64,000 nt of DNA from Noviherbaspirillum soli (GTDB taxonomy: Bacteria > Pseudomonadota > Gammaproteobacteria > Burkholderiales > Burkholderiaceae_D), in contig NZ_JACYOX010000012.1 of assembly GCF_015352955.1 (NCBI RefSeq), positions 1 through 64,000 on the forward strand, written 5' to 3'. This document shows, piece after piece, positions 20,834 to 35,521 of the stretch (position 1 is the stretch's first letter; each line of letters opens with the position of its first letter). The notes below the pieces were generated by a model. It had not been told where the DNA came from, ran no database searches, and saw only the letters and a list, made by a program, of their open reading frames with translations. The translations under genes were made by a program, and so were the position numbers.

Positions 20834-21008
20834 AGTGAATTCACCTTATGTGAAGTGGTGGAATAGTGGAAGCTGAGGATAGAACTTGCTCAGTTTCAAT
20901 GTTACTAGTTGAGTAACGTCATGCCGAATGTTGCTAAAAATCAATGAGCAGTCGGCCATGCTTAGTGTTTGTAATCCCTTCCTTAATTGACTTTTTCTGA
21001 AAAGATAA
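20834..21008. other. AT-rich divergent intergenic region
   Basis: Gap between the divergent glycosyltransferase and methyltransferase genes, clearly more AT-rich than most of the window. It contains a small palindrome (GTTACT at 20911 pairing with AGTAAC a few bases on) and a TTGACT close to the 21009 gene. It probably holds two promoters but no complete -35/-10 pair is convincing. Confidence 0.4.
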
Positions 21009-21662
21009 ATGGATTCAGGCCCAACTCATCAGAATCAATCCGCGGAAGCACCCGAATACACCGCTGATTGGTTTAATGCCGCCCGTCCCGTATGGGATAG
21101 GCTATTGCCACAATTGGATGCGCGGCTGGTACTGGAAATCGGCTCTTATGAAGGTGCGAGCGCGTGTTATCTCATCGATGTACTAGGCCAAAAAGCGCCA
21201 TTGGAAATTCACTGTATCGATCACTGGAATGGCGGCATCGAGCATCGCGCCGCTGCCGTCGACATGGCGCGGGTGGAGCAGCGTTTCCTTCGCAATACCG
21301 CCATCTCGATCGCTAATAGCGCATTCCCGGTGGACCTGCATATCCACAAGGGCAGTTCGGAAAGCTGCCTCGGCGCCTTGCTGAGCCGGCAGCCCAAGCC
21401 GCAGTTCGATTTCATTTACGTCGATGGCTCCCACCAGGCAGCCGACGTGCTGCTTGACGCCAGCATGGCATTCCGGCTGCTCAGGGTCGGCGGCATCATG
21501 GTCCTGGACGACTATCTCTGGCATGAGACGCTGGCGGGAGACAGGGACCCGCTGACGGTGCCGAAGATGGCGATCGATGCCTTTATCAACTGCCATTTCA
21601 ACCGGGTGCGCATGGTTTCGGCGCCGCTTTATCAGATTTTCCTGCAGAAGCTGGTTGAATGA
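21009..21662 (+). CDS. Class I SAM-dependent methyltransferase
   Basis: 217 residues of the Methyltransf_24 type. The SAM-binding glycine motif is VLEIGSYEGASACYLIDVL near 45-63, followed by an acidic IHCIDHWNGG and the FDFIYVDGSHQAADVLLD block typical of the family. The last part holds GGIMVLDDYLW. Substrate unknown; the neighbouring family-25 glycosyltransferase suggests surface glycan work, but that is inference. Confidence 0.82.
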   Translation: MDSGPTHQNQSAEAPEYTADWFNAARPVWDRLLPQLDARLVLEIGSYEGASACYLIDVLGQKAPLEIHCIDHWNGGIEHRAAAVDMARVEQRFLRNTAISIANSAFPVDLHIHKGSSESCLGALLSRQPKPQFDFIYVDGSHQAADVLLDASMAFRLLRVGGIMVLDDYLWHETLAGDRDPLTVPKMAIDAFINCHFNRVRMVSAPLYQIFLQKLVE

Positions 21663-23660: not shown

Positions 23661-23846
23661 ATGCAAAACCCTTCCGAGAATATTCCGCTGATCCAGATGC
23701 AGCAGGCTGAAAGCGGGCAGTGGCATGTCAACCAGGTTGGTCTGGCCGAACCGCTGGCTTCCTTTGCGGAGATGGAAGCCGCAGTCGATTATGCAAGCGA
23801 TTTTGCTCAGACCAGCGGTGGCCGCATCGTCCAGCATCTTGACTGA
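23661..23846 (+). CDS. Small DUF2188-like protein
   Basis: 61 residues (MQNPSENIPLIQMQQAESGQ onward). The GQWHVNQVGLAEPLASF, AVDYASDFAQTSGGRIVQHL pattern resembles DUF2188 small proteins, with a W near the start of the domain and GGxxxxH near the end. ATG 23661 has GGAG 7 bases upstream; the ATG at 23655 would be 1 base from it. Its stop overlaps a possible TTG start of the YihY gene. Function unknown. Confidence 0.6.
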   Translation: MQNPSENIPLIQMQQAESGQWHVNQVGLAEPLASFAEMEAAVDYASDFAQTSGGRIVQHLD

Positions 23847-24729
23847 GCCAGTGGCGCAAGGCCGTCCCGGGCTGCGCGCCATGCTGGAACTGGTACGGGA
23901 TGCGGTGTCGGCCTGGAGCCGCGACTATGCGCCCAGCATGGGCGCGGCGCTGTCGTATTACACGATCTTTTCGATTGCTCCGCTGCTGCTTATCGTCATT
24001 TCCATCGCCGGCATGTTCTATGGCGAGGAAGCGGCACGCGGTGCCGTGTTCTATCAGGTCAGAGACCTGATGGGCGATGGCGCCGCAGTCGCGCTGCAAG
24101 GACTCCTGGCCAGCGCGCGCAAACCGGCCGATGGCATCGTTGCCGCTTTCATCGGCGTGGTGCTGCTCATTGTCGGCGCAAGCTCGGTGTTTGGTGAACT
24201 GCAGAGCGCACTGGACAGGATCTGGCGCGTTCCCGAGCAGGAAAAATCCGGCGGCTTATGGAAGCTGCTGCGCACTCGCTTGGTCTCCTTCGCCATGATC
24301 ATTGGCATAGGACTGCTGCTGATTGCCTCGCTGCTTGCAAGCGCCTTGCTGGCGGTGCTTGAAAAGTGGTGGGGTGCGCTGTTCGGCGCCCGTGCGCTGC
24401 TGGCCAGCGCGCTCAACATCGGCTTGAGCTATCTGATGGTCACCGTGATGTTTGCGATGATCTACAAGATCATGCCGCGCATTCGCATCGCCTGGCGTGA
24501 CGTCTGGACCGGTGCGGCGATCACATCGCTGCTCTTTACGGCCGGAAAGTATGCAATTGGCCTGTACATTGGCACCAGCGGCGTCAGCTCCACCTTCGGC
24601 GCCGCCGGCTCGCTGGTCGTGATCCTGGTATGGGTGTATTACTCGGCGCAGATTTTCCTGCTGGGCGCCGAATTTACCTGGGTATATGCCCACCGCTATG
24701 GCTCCCGCCGTTCTTCTCAAAACACCTGA
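23839..24729 (+). CDS. YihY/BrkB family inner-membrane protein
   Basis: 296 residues with about six membrane helices and the family motifs AVSAWSRDYAPSMGAALSYYTIFSIAPLLLI, GASSVFGELQSALDRIW, and FGAAGSLVVILVWVYYSAQIFLLGAEFT. The role of the family is unclear; despite older names it is not an RNase. The start is uncertain: TTG 23839 (overlapping the previous stop), GTG 23851 or ATG 23881 all work and none has a good ribosome site. Confidence 0.85.
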   Translation: MTEPVAQGRPGLRAMLELVRDAVSAWSRDYAPSMGAALSYYTIFSIAPLLLIVISIAGMFYGEEAARGAVFYQVRDLMGDGAAVALQGLLASARKPADGIVAAFIGVVLLIVGASSVFGELQSALDRIWRVPEQEKSGGLWKLLRTRLVSFAMIIGIGLLLIASLLASALLAVLEKWWGALFGARALLASALNIGLSYLMVTVMFAMIYKIMPRIRIAWRDVWTGAAITSLLFTAGKYAIGLYIGTSGVSSTFGAAGSLVVILVWVYYSAQIFLLGAEFTWVYAHRYGSRRSSQNT

Positions 24730-24866: not shown

Positions 24867-24896
24867 GGAACAGGGGATTTCTTTGCGTTACTCAAC
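24867..24896 (+). promoter_or_regulatory. Candidate ECF-sigma promoter of the export operon
   Basis: GGAAC (24867-24871), 15 bases, then GTTACTCAAC (24887-24896), about 60 bases before the tolC-like start. The same arrangement with identical spacing (GGAAC-N15-GTTGCTCAAC) lies before the 66-residue gene at 33346. GGAAC is a usual ECF -35 core. The spacing to CGTT is slightly short for well-studied ECF sigmas, so the assignment is inference from the duplicated motif and the ECF gene in this operon. Confidence 0.5.
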
Positions 24897-24956
24897 GCAC
24901 TGCTCAAGCAAAAAAATTCCTCAAAAGTCCGGTTTGCAACGTCCAGTCCTTTCCGA

Positions 24957-26558
24957 ATGCTACTAGCCGGCTCAACGATAAAAATTCATTCATTGCGTGC
25001 CTTGCGGAGCATTTCATGCCACCTTGCCGGCATTCGCCTTTGCGTCCGGCTTCTCCCCATCCTGGGGATGTTCTTCACATGCGGCTCCGCATCGGGCCAG
25101 CAGTTCAGCGGCAGGCTGCTCGATGCGGTCAGGCTGACGTTATTGCATGAGCCGCAAATAGGCGCCGCCAACCGGCAGTTGATGCTCAGCGAAGGCCAGC
25201 TCCAGGTCGCCCGCGGTGAATTTGACACAGCGCTCACTACCGGAGTCGAACTGGCGCAGGCGCGCTCGCCCTTGCTGCAGGCGCTGCAAAGCCCCGCAGC
25301 AAGCCAGGTCGAAAGCAGCACCGCCTCCTATTTGCTGGGAGCGACAAGCCGTCTGCGTTCGGGTGTGACGGTAGCGCCCAGCGTCAGGATCAATCGGGTA
25401 CGCGACAACATCCAGTCGCTGACTTCGCCGGCCACAGGCACCGTGGCGCTCAATTTCACTGTGCCCCTCCAGAAGGGCAGGGGCACCCGCTTCAATACCG
25501 CTGCGGAACGGGCAGCGGAGCAGGTGCTGGCCTCGGCAGACATGGGTCTGCGGCACACCATCGCGTCCCGGATCAGTCGCAGCGTCAATGCCTACTGGGA
25601 TTACCTGGCCGCACTGCAGGCGCTGGATATCCGCCGGCTCTCCGAAAACCGTTCCCTGCTATTGCTCGATGATGCCCGCCGACTGGCCAGGGGTGATGAA
25701 ATTCCGCAGGCCGATGTGCTCCAATACGAGGCACAAGTGGCGCGCGACCGCGGCCTGCGTATCGCCGCCGAGCAGTCGCTGGCGGAAGCGCGCGCGGCGC
25801 TGGTGCTGGCCATGGGGATCGCCGGACAGCCCGATACGCCAACGCCTGCGCCAAGTGACGACTTTCCCGAGTTGCCTGCTGCCGTCATGGAATCGCTGTC
25901 CAGGCCATGGCCCTATTCGGCACTGGCTGCGCGCTTTGACGTCAGGGCGCAGCAGCGCCGCGTTGACGCTGCCGAGATTCTTTATGAGGCAACGCGGCGT
26001 GACCCGATCTCGCAGCTCGACCTGACCTTGTCGGTTGGCTATAGCGGCCTGCGTGAAAACCGTGCCGCGCTCGCCGCCTGGCAGGCCCTGAATGCGCCGG
26101 CGTCTGGCTTGAACGCGTCGATCGGCCTGGTCTACGTGCTGCCGGTGCAAGGCAATACCCAGGCTGGCCTAGTCCGCCAGCGCGCGGCGCTTGCCGAGCA
26201 GGCGCGCCTTGAGCTTGACGGCCTGCTGCAGGCCGCGCATGCCACTGTCAGCGTGCAGCGCGCCAGCGTTTTGAGTGCGGCCCTGCAGCTGGAACAGGCG
26301 CGGCAGCAGGTGAGGCTGCAGACACAGGTGTTTGCCGACGAGCGCAAGAAATACCGCCTTGGCCTGGCCACCGTGCTGGATCTGCTCACCGCCGAGGCAA
26401 GGCTTACCGCCGACGAGCTTGGCGTGATCGATGCCCGCCGCCGTCTTGCCCAGGCACTGGCCAGCTACCGTTTCGAGACCGCCACGTTGCTGGGCGCTGA
26501 CGGCGACGAGCAGCGCGTCACCATGGAATCATTGACGACCCTTCCGGAGCTGCCATGA
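24957..26558 (+). CDS. TolC-family outer-membrane export channel
   Basis: 533-residue outer-membrane efflux protein. After an N-terminal hydrophobic signal (about residues 25-47, ending near GSASGQQ), two long alpha-helical repeats rich in Ala, Gln, Arg and Leu follow, as in TolC, with a typical C-terminal YRLGLATVLDLLTAEARLTADELG block. It gives the type I exporter below its outer-membrane exit. Its stop overlaps the HlyD-type start by 4 bases. The start at 24957 is uncertain: no ribosome site is visible and the N-terminal stretch before the signal is long. Confidence 0.85.
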   Translation: MLLAGSTIKIHSLRALRSISCHLAGIRLCVRLLPILGMFFTCGSASGQQFSGRLLDAVRLTLLHEPQIGAANRQLMLSEGQLQVARGEFDTALTTGVELAQARSPLLQALQSPAASQVESSTASYLLGATSRLRSGVTVAPSVRINRVRDNIQSLTSPATGTVALNFTVPLQKGRGTRFNTAAERAAEQVLASADMGLRHTIASRISRSVNAYWDYLAALQALDIRRLSENRSLLLLDDARRLARGDEIPQADVLQYEAQVARDRGLRIAAEQSLAEARAALVLAMGIAGQPDTPTPAPSDDFPELPAAVMESLSRPWPYSALAARFDVRAQQRRVDAAEILYEATRRDPISQLDLTLSVGYSGLRENRAALAAWQALNAPASGLNASIGLVYVLPVQGNTQAGLVRQRAALAEQARLELDGLLQAAHATVSVQRASVLSAALQLEQARQQVRLQTQVFADERKKYRLGLATVLDLLTAEARLTADELGVIDARRRLAQALASYRFETATLLGADGDEQRVTMESLTTLPELP

Positions 26559-27811
26559 AGCAGGAGATGTTTCGCAAGTCGGCGCTGGACAGCCTCGCCA
26601 CGCCTGACCGGCTTGATGAAGCCATGCGGATTACCCGTCCGCGCGCCTGGATTGCCCTGGCAGCCATTCTGTTGATTCTTCTTTCCAGCCTGGTATGGAG
26701 CATTTTCGGCACGCTGCCCGCCAGCGTAGAGGGGCAGGGCATCATCATTCGCGAGGGCGGCACCTTCAACGTCGTCTCCTTCGGTACGGGCGTGCTAACG
26801 GAAATGGCCGATCTCGATCTCGGCGACCCGGTCCGCCCAGGGCAGGTGCTGGGTCGGATTGCCCAGCCTGAAATGGAGCAGCAGGTCGCGGCGCAACGCA
26901 AGGTGGTGCGGCAACTGACTGACGAGCAAAATGACCTGATCAGCCGCACCGATGCCTTGCGGCCGGTACAGGAAAAGGCCGTAAAACTTCAGCAGGCAGT
27001 GCTGCTCCACACCATCGCAACCCGGCAGGAGCAACTGCAATCTCTCCGTACCATGCTTGACGGGCAGCGGGAATTGCTGGGCGATGGCCTGATCACCCGC
27101 CAGCGCTACGAGCAGACCCGGCAGCAGGCGCTCGGTGCGGAAAGCGATATCGACAATGCCCGTACCATGCTGCAGAAGCTTTCCGTCGAGCAGATCGAGG
27201 TTGCCGCAGCGCGCGAGAACCGTTTGCGCGAGGTGGGCAACCGCCTGTTGCAGGCACAGAGCCGGCTCGAGGACCTGCTTTTGCAGCATGATCTCGCGTC
27301 CCGCATCGTCAGTCCGCATGAAGGCATCGTGGTCGAAACGATGGCGATGCAGGGTGACGTCGTCAAGAACGGCCAGCCCATCGTCAGTGTTGAAATCAAT
27401 GAAGGCTTGCTGGAAGCCGTGGTCTACCTGCCGCCCAATTCCAATGCCAAGCTGCTCAAGGCAGGCATGCCCGCCCAGATTTCACCGGCAACCGCCAAGA
27501 AGGAACGGTTCGGCTACCTGGTCGGCACCGTGACGGCGGTGGCGCAATACCCGGCGACCGAGCTGGGCATGCTGTCGCTGTTCAACAATGCCACGCTGGT
27601 GCGCGAGCTGACGCGCAACGGGCCGCCCATTTCTGTTCAGGTTCAGTTGACCAAAGATGCCGGCACCCGCAGCGGCTATCGCTGGTCGTCCAACGCCGGA
27701 GCCAAGGTCGAACTGTCCAGCGGGACCCTGGCAACGGGCACCTTCGTCGTGGAAAAAAAGCGCCCGATCAGCCTGCTTATCCCTTTGTTGCGCGAACTGA
27801 CCGGGACCTGA
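26555..27811 (+). CDS. HlyD-type adaptor of an NHLP-type export system
   Basis: 418-residue membrane-fusion protein. A cytoplasmic N-terminus (MKQEMFRKSALDSLATPDRLDEAMRITRPRAW) leads into one membrane helix (about 29-51), then a barrel-sandwich half (VEGQGIIIREGGTFNVVS), a long periplasmic coiled coil (about 105-245) and the second lipoyl half (ASRIVSPHEGIVVETMAMQGDVVKNGQPIVSVE). The short N-terminal FRKSALDSLATPDRLD is typical of the NHLM HlyD subfamily (TIGR03794 as I recall it). It bridges the ABC transporters to the TolC-type channel. Confidence 0.88.
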   Translation: MKQEMFRKSALDSLATPDRLDEAMRITRPRAWIALAAILLILLSSLVWSIFGTLPASVEGQGIIIREGGTFNVVSFGTGVLTEMADLDLGDPVRPGQVLGRIAQPEMEQQVAAQRKVVRQLTDEQNDLISRTDALRPVQEKAVKLQQAVLLHTIATRQEQLQSLRTMLDGQRELLGDGLITRQRYEQTRQQALGAESDIDNARTMLQKLSVEQIEVAAARENRLREVGNRLLQAQSRLEDLLLQHDLASRIVSPHEGIVVETMAMQGDVVKNGQPIVSVEINEGLLEAVVYLPPNSNAKLLKAGMPAQISPATAKKERFGYLVGTVTAVAQYPATELGMLSLFNNATLVRELTRNGPPISVQVQLTKDAGTRSGYRWSSNAGAKVELSSGTLATGTFVVEKKRPISLLIPLLRELTGT

Positions 27812-27813
27812 CC

Positions 27814-30021
27814 ATGGGCAAGTGGAACACGTTGTTGCGCCACATTAACGGCTGCAGGATAAAGACACCGACGGTGCTGCAGATGGAAGCGGTGGAATGT
27901 GGCGCGGCTGCCCTGGGCATCGTGCTGCAGCATTATGGCCGCTACGTGTCGCTGGAAGAGTTGCGCATCGCCTGTGGCGTGTCGCGCGATGGCAGCAAGG
28001 CCAGCAGCGTGGTGCGTGCCGCACGCGCGCACGGGCTCAAGGCCCAGGGTATGCGGCTTGACATCGACGCCCTGTATGGTCATGCCTGCCCGATGATCCT
28101 GTTCTGGAACTTCAACCACTTCCTTGTCCTGGAAGGACTGAATGACAAGAAGGCGTGGATCAATGATCCGGCGACTGGCCCGCGCACCGTTGCCATGGAT
28201 GAATTCAATCGATCCTATACCGGCATCGCGCTGCTGTTTGAGCCCGAGTCCCATTTCGAACGTTCACCTGATCCCAACGGGATCGTCGGCGCACTGAGCC
28301 GTCGGCTGCGCAATGTGCGGGGTGCTGCGGCCTATGTCCTGCTTGCCGGTCTGGGTATGGTCATTCCCGGCCTTGCCATCCCCGTGTTTTCGCAGGTCTT
28401 TGTCGATAGCTATCTGATAGGCCGGCTGCAGGGTTGGGTCAAGCCCCTGTTGCTGGGCATGGCGCTGACCGCCGTGCTCAGGGCCTTGCTGACCTGGCTT
28501 CAGCTGTCCTATCTGCTCAGGCTTGAAACCCGCCTCTCTCTTACGGCGTCGGCCAATTACTTCTGGCATCTGTTGCGACTTCCTATCGACTTCTTCAGCC
28601 AGCGGCACGCCGCCAGCATTGGCCAGAGGGTAAGCATCAACGACGGTATCGCGCGCCTGGTTGCCGGGGAGCTTGCGGTCAACGTGGTGAGCCTGGTGAC
28701 GCTGGTCTTCTATCTGGCCATCATGCTCTCCTATGATGTGCTGCTGACAGTAATCGGCGTATCGCTCACCATGCTCAATGTGCTGCTGCTGGCCGTGGTC
28801 TCACGCAAGCGACGCGACCGCACCATGCGCTTGCAGCAGCAGCGAGGCAAGCTTGGCGCCACGCTGGTTGGCGGCATCCAGACCATTGAAACCATCAAGG
28901 CGGGCGGCGGCGAAGCCGATTTCTTCAGCCGCTGGTCGGGCCTCAAGGCGGGCGTCAACAATACCGAGCAGGACCTGCTGTTCTACACCCGGCTGCTTGG
29001 CACCCTGCCTTTGCTGGTATCGGCAGCCATCACCGCCTCTATTCTGGGCCTGGGCGGTTTGCGTGTCATGTCGGGCGAGATCACGATCGGGATGCTGATC
29101 GCATTTCAGAGCCTGATGGTCTCCTTTTCCAGTCCGGTCAACAATCTCATGGGCCTGGCCGGCAGATTGCAGGAAGCCGACGCCGACCTCAAGCGCCTGG
29201 ATGACACGCTGCGTTATCAGGTTGATCCACGATTCATGGCCTCCGATGCGCCGGCAAACCCATCGGAGCAGGATGCGCCGGGGCTTGAGGAAAAACTTCA
29301 GGGCGCCCTGGAGCTGCGTCATGTCAGCTTCGGCTACAGCAGGCTGGAACCGCCCTTGCTGGAAGACTTCAGCCTGAGTCTTGCGCCGGGGCAGCGCGTT
29401 GCGCTGGTCGGCGCATCGGGAAGCGGCAAGAGCACGGTGGCGAAACTGGTAATGGGACTGCATCAGCCGTGGTCGGGTGAAATCCTGTTTGACGGGCGTC
29501 GCCGCGCCGACATCAGCCCACGCGTCCTCAGCGCCAGCCTGGCCGGCGTGGATCAGGATATCCATCTGTTCTCGGGGCGCGTTCGCGACAACTTCACGCT
29601 ATGGGACAGCAGCGTGGCAGAGCCGGACGTCGTGCGCGCCGGGCAAGATGCAGCAATCCATGACACCATCGCCAGCCGCGCTGGCGGCTACGATACACAG
29701 GTCACCGAGGGCGCCAGCAATTTTTCCGGAGGCCAGCGGCAGCGTCTTGAAATCGGTCGCGCGCTCACGGGCAATCCGCGCATCCTGGTGCTGGACGAAG
29801 CCACTGCGGCTCTCGACACGGCCACCGAGAAGGAAATCGACGACAGCCTGCGCCGTCGAGGCTGCACTTGCCTGATCGTTGCGCACCGCCTCTCCACGAT
29901 ACGCGACTGTGATGAAATCATCGTGATGGACCATGGCCGTATTGTCGAGCGAGGCACCCATGACACGCTGCTGCGTCGCGCAGGCGCCTACTCAGCACTG
30001 GTTGGCGAGATCGCAGCATGA
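27814..30021 (+). CDS. C39-peptidase/ABC exporter (NHLP bacteriocin type, ABC1)
   Basis: 735-residue bacteriocin-type exporter that should cut a leader peptide and export the mature peptide. The N-terminal C39 cysteine protease has QMEAVECGAAAL with Cys29, His102 (NFNHFLVLEG) and Asp118 (INDPATGPR), so the triad is complete. A six-helix membrane domain spans about 165-420. The ATPase has Walker A GASGSGKST, signature FSGGQRQR, Walker B ILVLDEATAALD and H-loop VAHRLST. Start MGKWNTLLRHINGCRIKTPTVLQMEAVECG. It is 2 bases after the HlyD stop and overlaps the next ABC gene. Confidence 0.94.
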   Translation: MGKWNTLLRHINGCRIKTPTVLQMEAVECGAAALGIVLQHYGRYVSLEELRIACGVSRDGSKASSVVRAARAHGLKAQGMRLDIDALYGHACPMILFWNFNHFLVLEGLNDKKAWINDPATGPRTVAMDEFNRSYTGIALLFEPESHFERSPDPNGIVGALSRRLRNVRGAAAYVLLAGLGMVIPGLAIPVFSQVFVDSYLIGRLQGWVKPLLLGMALTAVLRALLTWLQLSYLLRLETRLSLTASANYFWHLLRLPIDFFSQRHAASIGQRVSINDGIARLVAGELAVNVVSLVTLVFYLAIMLSYDVLLTVIGVSLTMLNVLLLAVVSRKRRDRTMRLQQQRGKLGATLVGGIQTIETIKAGGGEADFFSRWSGLKAGVNNTEQDLLFYTRLLGTLPLLVSAAITASILGLGGLRVMSGEITIGMLIAFQSLMVSFSSPVNNLMGLAGRLQEADADLKRLDDTLRYQVDPRFMASDAPANPSEQDAPGLEEKLQGALELRHVSFGYSRLEPPLLEDFSLSLAPGQRVALVGASGSGKSTVAKLVMGLHQPWSGEILFDGRRRADISPRVLSASLAGVDQDIHLFSGRVRDNFTLWDSSVAEPDVVRAGQDAAIHDTIASRAGGYDTQVTEGASNFSGGQRQRLEIGRALTGNPRILVLDEATAALDTATEKEIDDSLRRRGCTCLIVAHRLSTIRDCDEIIVMDHGRIVERGTHDTLLRRAGAYSALVGEIAA

Positions 30022-32681
30022 TGGCCACGGACAGCGCCGATATGGCGGCACACTTGGTGCAGTTGCTTGCGCCCCATGGGCAAAGGCAGTTTCCGCTTGC
30101 CCTGGAACCGGTCGTTCTGGGTGTCAGCGACACGGTGTGGCTGGTGGAGCAGGGCGGAGTCGACCTGTTTCATGTGGCAATCGCCGGCAGCGTGCCGGCT
30201 GGAGTGCGACGTCATGTATGTCGTATCAAGCCGGGCGAAGTCATCCTCGACAGGCCTGGATCGCCCGATTCTGCATTGATGGCAGTCGCCCTGTCGCGCA
30301 CCTCATGGATTCGACTGGAAAACGCCGGCGAAGGCGTGGCAGGCGACCAGGTTGCCGAGCAGGCCCTGCAACAACTGAAAGAGAACTGGCATCGCACGCT
30401 GTTGCGTGCAATACCCGGCTTGCCTGCGGAAGCGGTTCAGGCAAAGGCCAATCATGTTGCGCTGTTGAACGTGCTGGACGATCAAGCCGGCCAAGCGCAG
30501 ATGCGGGAGCATGCACAGCTCCAGCAGGGTGCGCTGGCCGAACTGCAGCAGATGCAGCATGCGCTGTCCGAGGTGGCTCAGGTCCTGTCGACTTCGGAAA
30601 CCGCGCTGCCTGCAGCGATTGGCAATCCGCTGCAGGCAGCTTGCACGCTGGTGCTGCGCGCCTCGGGTATCGCACTTCCTGGTTTGAAGGCCATCGCGTT
30701 GACGGCATCGGGCAGCGAGCCCTGGCTGGAAAGCTTTTGCCGTGAACATCAGTTGATACAGCGCCGGGTCAAACTGAAGGGTCCGTTCTGGTGGCGCCAG
30801 GATCACGGTGCGCTGCTGGCCTTTCATGAGGGATATAAAAGACCGGTTGCATTGATTCCGAATGCCAGCGGCTATGTGTTGAGCGACCCGGAAACCGGAA
30901 CGACGTGCCGTGTGGATGCTGACATCGCCAACAGCCTGACGACCCATGCAGTCCAGTTCTTTCCCTGCCTGCCCGGTGCGGCGCTTCGTTTCAAGGACCT
31001 GGTGTGGTTTGGCCTGACCGGCAGCCGCCGTGACCGCCTGAGACTGATCGTTTTCGGAATGGCGGGCGGGGCCGCTGGCATGATCTCCCCCATCGCCATG
31101 CAGGTGCTGACCGATTCCGTGCTGCCCTCTGCCGACCGCGACGAGCTTGGGCAATTGATTGCGCTGCTATTCATGACCGGCATCTGCATGACGGCGTTTA
31201 CCTTCTGCCGCGTGCTGGCAACGATGCGCATCCGCACACGTCTCGGCAACAGCGTTCAATGCGGGGTTATACATCGGCTGCTGGGGCTGCCGGCCGCTTT
31301 CTTCCGCGATCATGAGGCGGGCGATCTGGCGCAGCGGGCCATGGGGATCGATGCAGCACTGCAAACTATCAGCAATACCGTGGAAAGCGCCATTTTTGGC
31401 TGGCTGTTCGGCTTATTCAGTCTGCTGTATCTGTTTTTCCTGGACCTGCGCCTTGCTGTCATGGCCATCCTGCTGGTGGGCGTGCAATTGGCCTGGACGT
31501 TGGTGATGAACTATCGGGCATTGCTGGTCGAGCGCCAGAGCGCCGCTTTGTCCGGGCGTATCGCCAGCCAGGTTTTCCAGCTGCTCACAGGCATCGCAAA
31601 ACTGCGCGCCCATGGCGCGGAGCGGCGAGCGTTTTCAATCTGGGCCGGGCTTTTCGCGCAGCAGAAGGCGTTGGATATGCGCATCCATCGGATCGGCAAC
31701 GCCAGCGCCACCTTCGATGCCGGCTTTGGGCTCTTGTGCAGCATTCTGCTGTTCGGTGCTGTCGCATTCTTGTTGCCCGACATGCGTGCGGGTGAATTCC
31801 TGTCCTTCAGCGCCGCTTTTGCGCAGTTCCTGGGAGCAACCATGGCGTTGGGCAGCGCCTTGACCAGCAGCCTCGGCGTGATACCGCTGTACGAGAGGGC
31901 GCGGCCAATACTGCAGGCCATTCCCGAGGCCGTCGCAAGCGCGCATTTGCCCGGCAGACTCAACGGCGCAATCGATATCAGTGGACTGTCGTTTGGCTAT
32001 GGGGCGGATGGGTCCGACGTGCTCAGCGATATCAACATCGCCATCCGCCCCGGGGAATTCATCGCCCTGGTTGGCGCATCGGGCTGTGGCAAGTCGACTT
32101 TGCTGCGCCTGTTGCTCGGTTTCGAAACGCCGCGCTCCGGAGCGATTTACTACGACGGCCAGGACCTGTCCGGGCTGGACAAGGTGGCAATACGGCGGCA
32201 GATCGGCACCGTGCTCCAGAGCGGGAAGCTGATAGCGGGCGATATGTTCACCAATATTGTCGGCACCGCGCCCCTGACCATGGAGGACGCATGGGAAGCC
32301 GCCCGGATGGCCGGACTGGACGAAGATATCAAGGTCATGCCTATGGGCATGCATACGATGATCAATGACGGCGCAACCACAATTTCCGGAGGGCAAAGGC
32401 AACGCATGATGATCGCGCGTGCCATTGTCAGCAAACCAGCCATTCTTTTACTGGATGAGGCAACCAGCGCTCTCGATAACCGCACACAGGCCACTGTGAC
32501 AAGCAGTATCGCCAGCTTGAAAGCCACCAGGGTCGTCGTTGCCCACCGTCTTTCAACGATTGCCGGGGCCGACCGCATTTTCTTTATCGAACGAGGACGC
32601 ATTGTGGAGAGCGGGACTTACCAGGAATTAATGGCACTAAACGGTCGTTTTAAAACACTGGCTGAAAGGCAACTCATATGA
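30018..32681 (+). CDS. Second ABC permease/ATPase of the NHLP-type exporter (ABC2)
   Basis: 887-residue partner ABC protein. A long N-terminal region without protease motifs (about residues 1-340; NHLM ABC2 proteins carry a degenerate cyclic-nucleotide-like and C39-like part) is followed by about six membrane helices (345-630). The ATPase has Walker A GASGCGKST, signature ISGGQRQR, Walker B ILLLDEATSALD and VAHRLST. It probably forms a heterodimer with ABC1 and is diagnostic of NHLP loci (TIGR03797 as I recall). ATG 30018 overlaps the ABC1 stop, and its own stop overlaps the sigma-factor start. Confidence 0.9.
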   Translation: MMATDSADMAAHLVQLLAPHGQRQFPLALEPVVLGVSDTVWLVEQGGVDLFHVAIAGSVPAGVRRHVCRIKPGEVILDRPGSPDSALMAVALSRTSWIRLENAGEGVAGDQVAEQALQQLKENWHRTLLRAIPGLPAEAVQAKANHVALLNVLDDQAGQAQMREHAQLQQGALAELQQMQHALSEVAQVLSTSETALPAAIGNPLQAACTLVLRASGIALPGLKAIALTASGSEPWLESFCREHQLIQRRVKLKGPFWWRQDHGALLAFHEGYKRPVALIPNASGYVLSDPETGTTCRVDADIANSLTTHAVQFFPCLPGAALRFKDLVWFGLTGSRRDRLRLIVFGMAGGAAGMISPIAMQVLTDSVLPSADRDELGQLIALLFMTGICMTAFTFCRVLATMRIRTRLGNSVQCGVIHRLLGLPAAFFRDHEAGDLAQRAMGIDAALQTISNTVESAIFGWLFGLFSLLYLFFLDLRLAVMAILLVGVQLAWTLVMNYRALLVERQSAALSGRIASQVFQLLTGIAKLRAHGAERRAFSIWAGLFAQQKALDMRIHRIGNASATFDAGFGLLCSILLFGAVAFLLPDMRAGEFLSFSAAFAQFLGATMALGSALTSSLGVIPLYERARPILQAIPEAVASAHLPGRLNGAIDISGLSFGYGADGSDVLSDINIAIRPGEFIALVGASGCGKSTLLRLLLGFETPRSGAIYYDGQDLSGLDKVAIRRQIGTVLQSGKLIAGDMFTNIVGTAPLTMEDAWEAARMAGLDEDIKVMPMGMHTMINDGATTISGGQRQRMMIARAIVSKPAILLLDEATSALDNRTQATVTSSIASLKATRVVVAHRLSTIAGADRIFFIERGRIVESGTYQELMALNGRFKTLAERQLI

Positions 32682-33247
32682 GCAAGCTGCTGCTGGCTGA
32701 GGGCGATAAATGGGTCGAACAGGCCCGGAACGGCAACCAGGACGCATTCAACAAGCTGATGGAAGCCTATTACAGCAGGGTATGGCGGTTCCTCCTCAAA
32801 TGGGTGAAGAACCGCGACGATGCCGAGGAACTGACGCAGGAAACCTTTCTGGCGGCATGGCGCGCGCTGCCTGGCTACCGGGCCGGATCGCAGTTTTCCA
32901 CCTGGCTGCTGGGCATTGCGCTCAACCTGGCACGCAACCATCACAACCGGGTGGTCAAAAAGCGCCTGAACGATGTGGAACTGGACGAGTCGCTTTACCT
33001 GGAACGGCCGGGTGGGCATGATATCGAACCGGAATCGCAATACCAGCGCAAGCAGGCGATGATCGCGCTGCAGCAATCCATAGACCGATTGCCCGAGGAC
33101 ATGCGGGAGGTCATGGTCATGGTCAAGCTGGAGGGCATGCTGCTTGAAGATGTCGCCAGCATGCTGGGCATTCCTTCCGGAACGGTGAAAAGCCGGCTGT
33201 CGCGCGCCAAGACCAAGTTGATGGAAGATATGGGACGTCATCTCTAG
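32678..33247 (+). CDS. ECF-family RNA polymerase sigma factor
   Basis: 189 residues. Region 2 is clear: DAFNKLMEAYYSRVWRFLLKWV, DAEELTQETFLAAWRALPGYR and FSTWLLGIALNLARNHHNR. Region 4 has LPEDMREVMVMVKLEGMLLEDVASMLGIPSGTVKSRLSRAKTKL. It is translationally coupled to the exporter (ATGA overlap with ABC2), so its amount should follow that of the transporter. No membrane or zinc anti-sigma factor is encoded beside it; the only downstream gene in the unit is the 66-residue one. Confidence 0.92.
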   Translation: MSKLLLAEGDKWVEQARNGNQDAFNKLMEAYYSRVWRFLLKWVKNRDDAEELTQETFLAAWRALPGYRAGSQFSTWLLGIALNLARNHHNRVVKKRLNDVELDESLYLERPGGHDIEPESQYQRKQAMIALQQSIDRLPEDMREVMVMVKLEGMLLEDVASMLGIPSGTVKSRLSRAKTKLMEDMGRHL

Positions 33248-33269
33248 TCAGGAGGCGGCGGCCGCAGTC

Positions 33270-33299
33270 GGAACGAAACGCCGACCGCAGTTGCTCAAC
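33270..33299 (+). promoter_or_regulatory. Candidate ECF-sigma promoter of the 66-residue gene
   Basis: GGAAC (33270-33274), 15 bases, then GTTGCTCAAC (33290-33299), 46 bases before ATG 33346. It matches the motif before the tolC-like gene in sequence and spacing. Confidence 0.5.
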
Positions 33300-33345
33300 C
33301 TGTCGAACGCACCCGTTCTCATCGACTCTTACCAAGGACATCAAC

Positions 33346-33546
33346 ATGAATGACAAGGAATCCAAACTCGACCATCTGCTGGCGGATCTGGCGGCATCCT
33401 ATGCCCGTAGCGCGCCGCCGCGGGACGGGCTGGAAAAGCTGAAGCGCCGCATGCAGGCAGAGACCAATACGCTGTCGGACGCCGACCTGGAATGGCTTGC
33501 CGCTGCCGGCAAGGCCCTGGAGATAAAAGGCCACAAGGACGAATGA
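33346..33546 (+). CDS. 66-residue protein, candidate substrate or sigma partner of the export locus
   Basis: Acidic/basic soluble protein with no Cys and no hydrophobic segment, preceded by AAGGA with good spacing. An Ala-rich helix (LDHLLADLAASYARS) and a second helix are followed by NTLSDADLEWLAAAG and a short basic tail KALEIKGHKDE. The LSDADLEWLAAAG part resembles the LSDEELEAVAGG end of NHLP/Nif11-type leader peptides, with AG in place of GG. It could be a peptide precursor for the C39 exporter, giving an 11-residue core, or a regulator of the adjacent ECF sigma. No family is firmly recognised. Confidence 0.65.
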   Translation: MNDKESKLDHLLADLAASYARSAPPRDGLEKLKRRMQAETNTLSDADLEWLAAAGKALEIKGHKDE

Positions 33547-33983: not shown

Positions 33984-34940
33984 ATGAATCAGTGTCCCGT
34001 GAAGTTTTCCAGTGTCCTGCGCCTGCTGGGAAGCGCGTTGCTCATTCCCGGCCTTGCGCTTGCCAGTCCGTTCGCCTATGTACCCAATGAGAAGTCAGGC
34101 ACGGTGTCGGTCATCGATGTTGCCAACGACAGCGTAGTCACCGACATCAAGGCCGGCAGCAAGCCGCGCGGCCTGGCCATCGCCGGAAACCGGCTGTATG
34201 TCAGCGACCAGCCGGCCAACGCCCTCGTGGTGATCGACCTGGCCAGCCGCAAGCCCAGCGGAACGGTCGCGCTCGGCGAGTCGCCGGAGGGCGTGTCGGC
34301 TTCGGCGGCCGGGGACTGGATCGTCGCGGCCAGCGAGGTCAGCAATGCAGTCAGCTTCATCGATGTCGCTACCGGGAAAAAGGCGTTTTCCGTCACCACG
34401 GAAGGCAAGAATCCGGAGCATGCGGTGTTCAGTCCCGACGGCAAGCTGCTGCTGGTCAGCGCCGAGGAAGCCGACAGCGTGGACGTGGTGGATGTGGCGC
34501 AGCGCAAGCAGGTGGCGTCGATCAAGGTGGGCATGCGGCCGCGCGGCATTGCCTTCCGGCCCGACGGCGCTGTCGCCTATGTCGCCTGCGAACTGGCCAG
34601 CACGGTGTACGCGATCGACGTGCCCGGCCGCAAGGTGATCAAGGAAATCAAGGCCGGCAACTTTTCGAATGGCGTGACCATGGCGCCCGACGGCAAGCGG
34701 GTCTATGTCTCCAACGGCAAGGATGGCAGCGTGTCGGTGATCGACACCGCCGGCAATGCGGTCGTTGCCACGATTCCGGTTGGAAAGCGACCCTGGAACA
34801 TGGCGATCACGCCGGATGGCAGCAAGCTCTATGTGGCCAATGGCCGATCCAATTCGGTGTCGGTGATCGACACCGCCAGCAATACGGTCAGCAAGGAGAT
34901 TAGCGTCGGAGAAATGCCATGGGGAGTCGTGATCCAATGA
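33984..34940 (+). CDS. PQQ-catabolism-associated YVTN beta-propeller protein
   Basis: 318-residue periplasmic beta-propeller with a Sec signal (about residues 1-28, ending LALAS). Seven blades carry repeated V-x-V-I-D motifs (GTVSVIDVANDSVV, ALVVIDLASRK, VSFIDVATGKK, VDVVDVAQRKQ, VYAIDVPGRK, VSVIDTAGNAV, VSVIDTASNTV). It fits the propeller family found beside quinoprotein alcohol dehydrogenases (TIGR03866 as I recall); its biochemical role is not known. ATG 33984 has AGGAG 5 bases upstream. Its stop overlaps the cytochrome b561 start. Confidence 0.85.
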   Translation: MNQCPVKFSSVLRLLGSALLIPGLALASPFAYVPNEKSGTVSVIDVANDSVVTDIKAGSKPRGLAIAGNRLYVSDQPANALVVIDLASRKPSGTVALGESPEGVSASAAGDWIVAASEVSNAVSFIDVATGKKAFSVTTEGKNPEHAVFSPDGKLLLVSAEEADSVDVVDVAQRKQVASIKVGMRPRGIAFRPDGAVAYVACELASTVYAIDVPGRKVIKEIKAGNFSNGVTMAPDGKRVYVSNGKDGSVSVIDTAGNAVVATIPVGKRPWNMAITPDGSKLYVANGRSNSVSVIDTASNTVSKEISVGEMPWGVVIQ

Positions 34941-35521
34941 ATGCCATCGTAGAAGGGAAGGCGCTGCAGGCACAGGCCAGGCCGGCTGCCCGTTACACCT
35001 GGCAGGCCATTGCGCTGCACTGGCTGCTGGCGGCGCTGATCATAGGCATGCTGGTGCTCGGCTATTCGCTGGAAGACATTCCGCGCAATACGCCTGCGCG
35101 CGGCTTCTATGTGAACCTGCACAAGTCGTTTGGCGTGCTGGTGCTGGTTCTGGTGCTGGTGCGGCTGGGCTGGCGTTTCACGCACAGGCCGCCGCCGCTG
35201 GAAGCCGGCGTGCCGCGCTGGCAGGCGGTCGCCGCCGCCTGGAGCCACGGGCTGCTGTATCTGTGCATCCTGCTGCAGCCCTTGTCGGGCTACCTGGGAT
35301 CCTCGTTCGGCAAGTACGGCGTGAAGTTCTTCGGAATCGAACTGCCCAACTGGGGCTGGGAAGACAAGGCGCTGCGCGGCTTCTTCGGGGAAGTGCATGA
35401 AGCGGTCGGGTTCGCGCTGGCGGTGCTGATCGCCATCCATGTGCTGGCGGCGCTGAAGCACCTGCTGATCGACCGTGACCAGGTGTTCCAGCGCATGATG
35501 CCGGGCGGGCGCAGATCCTGA
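34937..35521 (+). CDS. Cytochrome b561 family protein
   Basis: 194-residue inner-membrane dihaem cytochrome with four membrane helices. Haem-ligating His residues sit in ALHWLLAALIIG, LHKSFGVLVLVLVLVRLGWRF, EVHEAVGFALAVLIAIHVLAALKH. It probably passes electrons between the periplasmic alcohol-oxidation proteins and the quinone pool. ATG 34937 overlaps the propeller stop as ATGA. Confidence 0.88.
   Translation: MNAIVEGKALQAQARPAARYTWQAIALHWLLAALIIGMLVLGYSLEDIPRNTPARGFYVNLHKSFGVLVLVLVLVRLGWRFTHRPPPLEAGVPRWQAVAAAWSHGLLYLCILLQPLSGYLGSSFGKYGVKFFGIELPNWGWEDKALRGFFGEVHEAVGFALAVLIAIHVLAALKHLLIDRDQVFQRMMPGGRRS

Follow-up and report, generated by a model that had tools for sequence, protein, structure and literature searches.

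The 64,000-nucleotide window analysed here (positions 1 to 64,000 of contig NZ_JACYOX010000012.1 from Noviherbaspirillum soli) carries a tightly packed operon for an NHLM-type peptide exporter with a C39 peptidase. The operon ends in a gene for an extracytoplasmic function (ECF) sigma factor, and a 66-amino-acid open reading frame (ORF) stands directly behind it. Our preferred reading, to which we give a probability of roughly 0.6 on the basis of sequence comparisons, is that this ECF is HrpL/BtrS-like and would drive its own gene, those of the exporter and a type III-type regulon, with the small protein as its partner.

The operon ECF would read promoters of the form GGAAC-N15-GTTAC and so switch on its own exporter operon, a positive feedback. 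It would likewise, in the manner of HrpL or BtrS, switch on scattered genes for type III secretion, chaperones and effector-like proteins; from a variant GTTGC promoter it would also activate the small protein, which would restrain the ECF in a negative feedback. If this is true, an exporter of the kind used for ribosomally synthesized and post-translationally modified peptides belongs to a type III secretion regulon, together with an exporter-encoded ECF and a small partner. That would suggest peptides deployed alongside, or outliving, injected proteins in these soil bacteria, and would offer a system, beyond flagella and injectisomes, in which to test sigma control gated by an exporter. The GTTAC and GTTGC motifs would then give an immediate handle on the exporter's missing substrate and on the rest of the regulon.

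The exporter operon and its sigma gene

Five genes, tolC-hlyD-ABC1-ABC2-ECF, form one tight run on the forward strand, where all features with window coordinates below also lie. The TolC-type outer membrane channel (24957-26558) passes the Pfam OEP model at 82 bits and scores weakly against the NCBIfam model TIGR01844 (78 bits, cut-off 225). Its end shares an ATGA overlap with the start of an NHLM-type HlyD adaptor (26555-27811; TIGR03794, 322 bits, cut-off 156). After a 2-base gap comes ABC1, an ATP-binding cassette (ABC) protein combining C39 peptidase, permease and ATPase (27814-30021; TIGR03796, 1046 bits, cut-off 853), and through another ATGA overlap ABC2, with permease and ATPase and without peptidase (30018-32681; TIGR03797, 814 bits, cut-off 709). 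The peptidase domain (Pfam PF03412) spans residues 18-146 of ABC1, and the catalytic triad Cys29/His102/Asp118 is conserved in all six aligned ABC1 proteins. HlyD, ABC1 and ABC2 all exceed the curated NCBIfam cut-offs of the NHLM/NHLP exporter, and we therefore rejected a generic type I exporter.

A further ATGA overlap leads from ABC2 to the ECF gene (32678-33247; 189 amino acids; TIGR02937, 108 bits, cut-off 43). Pfam finds sigma regions 2 and 4 (PF04542 and PF08281) in the product, and region 3 is without a match. Relatives with this ECF are a second Noviherbaspirillum genome (G015), N. suwonense (G055, locus L014), N. pedocola (G078, L015), a Herminiimonas metagenome-assembled genome (MAG; G017, L016) and Rugamonas rubra (G143, L017), which we compare below with the N. 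soli genome itself (G000). Between N. soli and G015, the ratio of non-synonymous to synonymous substitution rates (dN/dS) of the ECF gene is 0.014, far below the 0.08-0.15 of its exporter-operon partners; the flanking genes stand at 0.09, 0.032 (a beta-propeller gene) and 0.13. Constraint so much stronger than that of the exporter genes fits a regulator acting at multiple promoters. The R. rubra ECF is 49% identical to that of the window, and a plasmid search with the ECF returned 18 records, every one below 60% identity. Between ABC2 and the ECF gene, R. rubra also has a frame (L017:8797-9950) whose product looks, by eye, like an amino-acid-binding lipoprotein of the periplasm and may be a sensor for the operon.

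An earlier note, made from the letters of the window alone, had described the five-gene run with its ATGA overlaps or 2-base gaps, the intact C39 triad and an NHLP-type identity. Rechecked coordinates and junctions, the ABC1 alignment and the family scores bear these claims out, and the NHLM features whose lack it had named as a possible refutation are present. Its range for the locus, 24957-33546, was right, although it passed over the 66-amino-acid ORF that ends exactly there. It had also left the exporter's substrate open, in keeping with the precursor searches: across the whole N. soli genome the NHLP precursor family TIGR03793 reached at best E 0.98, below its cut-off, and the Nif11 precursor family TIGR03798 had no match at E 10, the genome-wide search being confined to these two precursor kinds. 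An NHLP or Nif11 precursor in this genome is thus rejected. The genome's one other C39 match, on contig C26 (2077-2463), belongs to a protein in which cyclic-nucleotide-binding-like domains precede the peptidase and which also matches family 2B encapsulin and CRP-type models.

Promoter motifs at the operon and across genomes

Upstream of tolC stands an exact, putative ECF-type promoter, GGAAC-N15-GTTAC followed by TCAACGC (24867-24898; GGAAC at 24867-24871, GTTAC at 24887-24891), with 65 bases from GTTAC to the tolC ATG. Counting N. soli, four Noviherbaspirillum genomes have such a site before tolC, the others being G015, N. suwonense and N. pedocola, and the spacers have diverged. The operon of the Herminiimonas MAG is split, and sites stand before both its ECF unit and its hlyD unit, the latter as TGAAC-N15-GTTAC; the ECF operon's own promoter is conserved in five genomes. 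A variant, GGAAC-N15-GTTGC, lies before the small ORF (33270-33294) and recurs in all six gaps between the ECF gene and this ORF. It occurs nowhere outside these gaps in the 619,803 bases scanned, where base counting predicts about 1.2 occurrences (a seventh row of the scan, L155, duplicates the contig of L016), and letter shuffles of the gaps reproduce it 0-2 times per 20,000. The small gene thus seems to be served by an ECF-type promoter of its own, in which the -10 element is altered.

Sites of this kind are dispersed well beyond the operon. An extended form, GAAC-N15-GTTAC-NNARY, has between 5 and 18 occurrences per genome in five of the genomes. Matches against control number 6 against 3 in N. 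soli, 7 against 2 in G015, 5 against 1 in N. suwonense, 11 against 2 in N. pedocola and 18 against 3 in the MAG. Together these make 47 against 11, or 37 against 11 after subtraction of the ten sites that supplied the extension. A 38-site matrix was also built, its core columns fixed by the search pattern; by our judgement it leaves out L119, L120, L135, L136, L146, L147, L149 and L087 and keeps some sites with overlapping frames (for example L134, L137 and L140). Of the 18 sites in the MAG, 14 are followed on the same strand by an ORF, taken as the longest nearby one of at least 60 amino acids, whose start lies 29-208 bases downstream.

The genes at these sites recur in kind. CesT chaperones stand behind or beside four (L130, L134, L145 and L146) and leucine-rich repeat (LRR) proteins behind or beside another four (L125, L131, L144 and L150). 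Further neighbours are an F-box-like protein (L132) and an ElaD/SseL-like protein (L128), both sub-threshold, and a GNAT-domain protein (L133). In the subset of site loci scanned, 5 of 20 proteins had no Pfam match at 0.01. Genes downstream of or linked to sites also encode SycD-like, SctV, SctD, SctN and SctY proteins, and type III structural (sct) operons of the MAG, N. suwonense and N. pedocola are preceded by the motif or a near form of it. Identity was checked for SctV, SctD, SctU, SctC, SctN, SctY and the SycD-like chaperone, the other sct names being assigned by eye. The exporter operon and type III genes therefore have a promoter motif in common, as expected of an HrpL-type regulon, and in the MAG one 18-kb contig holds SctV, SctD and the ECF-exporter locus. 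Just upstream of the MAG's ECF unit lies a second HlyD-like adaptor (L155:12294-13709), more classical by eye.

A second site is syntenic, standing behind the same conserved gene with diverged spacers in all four Noviherbaspirillum genomes examined. The proteins behind it in N. soli and G015 are homologous (47% identity over 442 amino acids); those at the same place in N. suwonense and N. pedocola have no BLAST match to them at 1e-10 and by eye are also Ser/Pro-rich. In N. soli, three tandem Ser/Pro-rich low-complexity proteins follow this site (C16:285147-289606, L112). We had considered C16:285-337 kb as a type III cluster and dropped it, no sct gene being visible there by eye.

What N. soli retains of a type III system is a remnant, a SctD-like gene with a C-terminal SctV fragment (C94:97914-100595, equal to L178:9914-12595), and no SctV above cut-off was found in G015. 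Another genome, G106, has SctV above cut-off; in the 35 kb read there, no similar ECF and no site at the sct genes were found, and the single match to the motif falls within a long ORF of the opposite strand.

Elsewhere in the window, a weaker promoter-like match with three mismatches (20882-20912) precedes a Methyltransf_24 gene (21009-21662). Such degenerate matches are within chance in the window (8 seen, 5.3 expected), and the G015 orthologue of the gene has a site that fits the extended pattern exactly; the methyltransferase gene is a possible further member of the regulon. The flanks of the operon (window 23725-24729 and 34032-35521) are kept in relatives, with a BrkB-family gene upstream and a cytochrome b561 gene downstream in L014, L015 and L018, and the beta-propeller gene in L015 and L018.

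The 66-amino-acid protein behind the sigma gene

The small ORF (33346-33546) begins 98 bases after the ECF gene. Wherever a homologue was found, which was in six genomes, it immediately follows the ECF gene; these six, among the 392 genomes of a family sample, are exactly those with this ECF. In another family sample, ABC2 is present in 9 of 145 genomes; of these, three (G001/L020, G106/L019 and G027/L022) have exporter loci with neither this ECF nor the small ORF. Where the MAG operon is split (L016), the small ORF remains beside the ECF gene and not the exporter. Adjoining and co-occurring with the ECF gene at all six loci, as a sigma factor's partner should, the protein is probably just that, most likely an anti-sigma or modulator that would bind the ECF.

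Database searches place it in no described family. No Pfam or NCBIfam family fits, a PDB sequence search returned nothing below E 0.05, a plasmid search gave no matches, and the N. soli genome holds a single copy. A structure model from five sequences has three helices at a predicted local distance difference test score of 63 and a predicted template modelling score of 0.30, too weak for fold comparison. Two sets of further matches were set aside. A 31-residue match (E 0.003) at a second G001 locus (L023) falls inside a 195-amino-acid protein, which by eye looks cyclic-nucleotide-binding, and was judged chance; class-wide profile matches (10 of 369), which beyond the own locus are parts of long frames at E 4.7e-5 to 0.008, were judged noise.

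Within the protein lies a helix resembling a C39 leader, LSDADLEWLAAA (33472-33507), with Leu at -12, -7 and -4 and Ala-Ala at -2/-1. The three leucines (L43, L48 and L51) are invariant in the six homologues and occupy the hydrophobic positions of C39 leaders; a passage of the LahT work places Leu-12, Leu-7 and Val-4 in hydrophobic pockets (PMC6363468). Ala-Ala, present in 6/6, departs from the GG, GA or GS given elsewhere as the usual -2/-1 residues of these double-glycine leaders (PMC10885120). The C-terminal pattern reads L-S/T-D-x-D/Q-L-D/E-W-L-A/S-A-A-G, followed by a variable hydrophilic tail. The NHLP/Nif11 cleavage region, as set out in a passage of Haft 2010 (PMC2887384), has acidic residues at 1, 4 and 6, while Leu occupies positions 2 and 7, Ser/Thr position 3, Val/Leu position 10 and Gly-Gly positions 12-13; of these, positions 2, 3, 4, 7 and 10 are matched in all six homologues and position 6 in five, while position 1 mostly is not.

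A loose regular expression for the motif has 4 matches in 136,729 residues (332 ORFs of at least 150 amino acids) and a strict one has none. Scanned across 14 sequence sources, the leader motif matched the small ORF in all 6 loci having it, and 4 other frames. L022 contributed one of these, L015 two and the window one, the window frame and one of those in L015 being antisense to a conserved gene. A weak cytochrome c match of the 66-amino-acid protein covers part of the helix. The resemblance to a C39 leader may be due to chance, since helix-capping motifs of similar look may occur in unrelated proteins.

Alternative readings and known systems

The earlier note had proposed a self-contained, self-reinforcing circuit for peptide secretion or signalling, in which the ECF would control the exporter alone and the precursor would lie elsewhere. 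Its feedback between sigma factor and exporter is supported by the conserved promoter before tolC in four genomes and before both units in the MAG. The completeness of the NHLM exporter, the promoter before the operon and the persistence of the operon in N. soli, with its SctV fragment, and in G015, with no SctV above cut-off, speak for such a circuit. The self-contained part fares worse, for the extended motif recurs across five genomes, at several sites before recurring kinds of gene (type III, CesT and LRR), neither TIGR03793 nor TIGR03798 found a precursor in N. soli, and constraint on the sigma factor is far above that on the exporter genes; we now consider this reading quite improbable. 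Somewhat less so, though still unlikely, is that the exporter operon is a client: an ECF of the type III secretion system (T3SS) cluster would read GTTAC, and the operon ECF another target, which might be the GTTGC site alone. N. suwonense and N. pedocola do hold another ECF inside their T3SS clusters, 35-36% identical to the operon ECF and with no motif site upstream, as for a top-level regulator; a similar one lies about 13 kb from SctV in R. rubra. But the extended motif persists at 6 places in N. soli and 7 in G015, where type III secretion is decayed or absent, which, like the promoter of its own conserved in five genomes and its low dN/dS, favours the operon ECF as the reader, and no such ECF was found at the N. 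soli remnant, to which the search of these two genomes for a second ECF was limited.

Several observations nonetheless weigh against an operon ECF in command of a type III-type regulon. The cluster-borne ECFs could be the real readers of the GTTAC box or share it. In the four Noviherbaspirillum genomes, plain GGAAC-N15-GTTAC has 24 matches against 41 for a backwards control, hence no excess in raw counts; enrichment requires the NNARY extension, which was picked after viewing about ten sites. Taken alone, the enrichment in N. soli is small (6 against 3), and R. rubra has none (1 against 1). That genome also lacks a GTTAC site at tolC and keeps only the GTTGC site, as the client arrangement would allow. 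Several motif sites fall inside or across other frames, and the beta-propeller gene, outside the operon, is strongly constrained too (dN/dS 0.032). Finally, with SctV a fragment in N. soli and no passing SctV in G015, the regulon could hardly serve a working type III system there.

Given its leader-like helix, the small protein could, as a concrete possibility, be captured or ejected by the C39 exporter. The 66-amino-acid protein might then be an anti-sigma captured or ejected by the adjacent exporter through this helix, with exporter assembly and occupancy setting the activity of the HrpL-like sigma factor; we offer this as a speculative extension that its sequence makes thinkable, not as an expectation. 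By analogy, it would carry FlgM/BtrA logic over to an ABC/C39 exporter and tie peptide export to the type III programme, an equally tentative idea. The protein might instead be the exporter's substrate, its leader ending in LSDADLEWLAAA and its variable hydrophilic tail of 12-17 residues being released as a signal peptide. The invariant leucines at the positions that C39 leaders need (PMC6363468), a conserved leader-like part before a variable tail, and a single copy per genome, confined to genomes having both exporter and ECF, all suit a substrate. Ala-Ala in place of GG/GA/GS and an invariant Trp at -5 do not; nor do the ORF's adherence to the ECF gene in the split MAG operon and the lack of any known modifying enzyme seen beside it, and we regard a substrate role as doubtful.

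In the literature searched, among the matches listed, we did not find this arrangement of ECF, exporter and small ORF described, although exporters and sigma factors of these kinds are each known. The operon resembles the NHLM/NHLP exporter of Haft 2010 in its trio above cut-offs and intact C39 triad; it differs in having an ECF and a small ORF where precursor genes might be expected, with no NHLP/Nif11 precursor, and the word 'sigma' is absent from the main text of that paper (PMC2887384). The pairing of an ECF with a small partner recalls SigX-CfrX, where the ECF has a small soluble putative anti-sigma in a mechanosensing complex, in whose description no exporter figures (PMC8999054).

Bordetella BtrS is, in the account cited, an ECF for a type III regulon whose anti-sigma BtrA is exported, proposed to couple secretion to expression (PMC7498569). 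The likeness lies in a type III-regulon ECF with an adjacent partner gene. The differences here are a 66-amino-acid partner with no family match and an adjacent exporter of the ABC/C39 kind; export of the anti-sigma is a Bordetella feature, whereas export of the present partner is our hypothesis. In its promoter the system departs from HrpL, for the -10 element of the hrp box is CCAC and that of the motif here is GTTAC. HrpL (ECF32) is described as the master sigma factor for type III secretion among plant-associated bacteria and is present in Herbaspirillum (PMC8999054, PMC3093359). The operon ECF differs from it in lying within an ABC exporter operon, in seemingly activating itself and in having a small partner ORF, and resembles it in being an ECF whose GGAAC-type box stands before scattered genes of the type III, chaperone and effector-like kinds.

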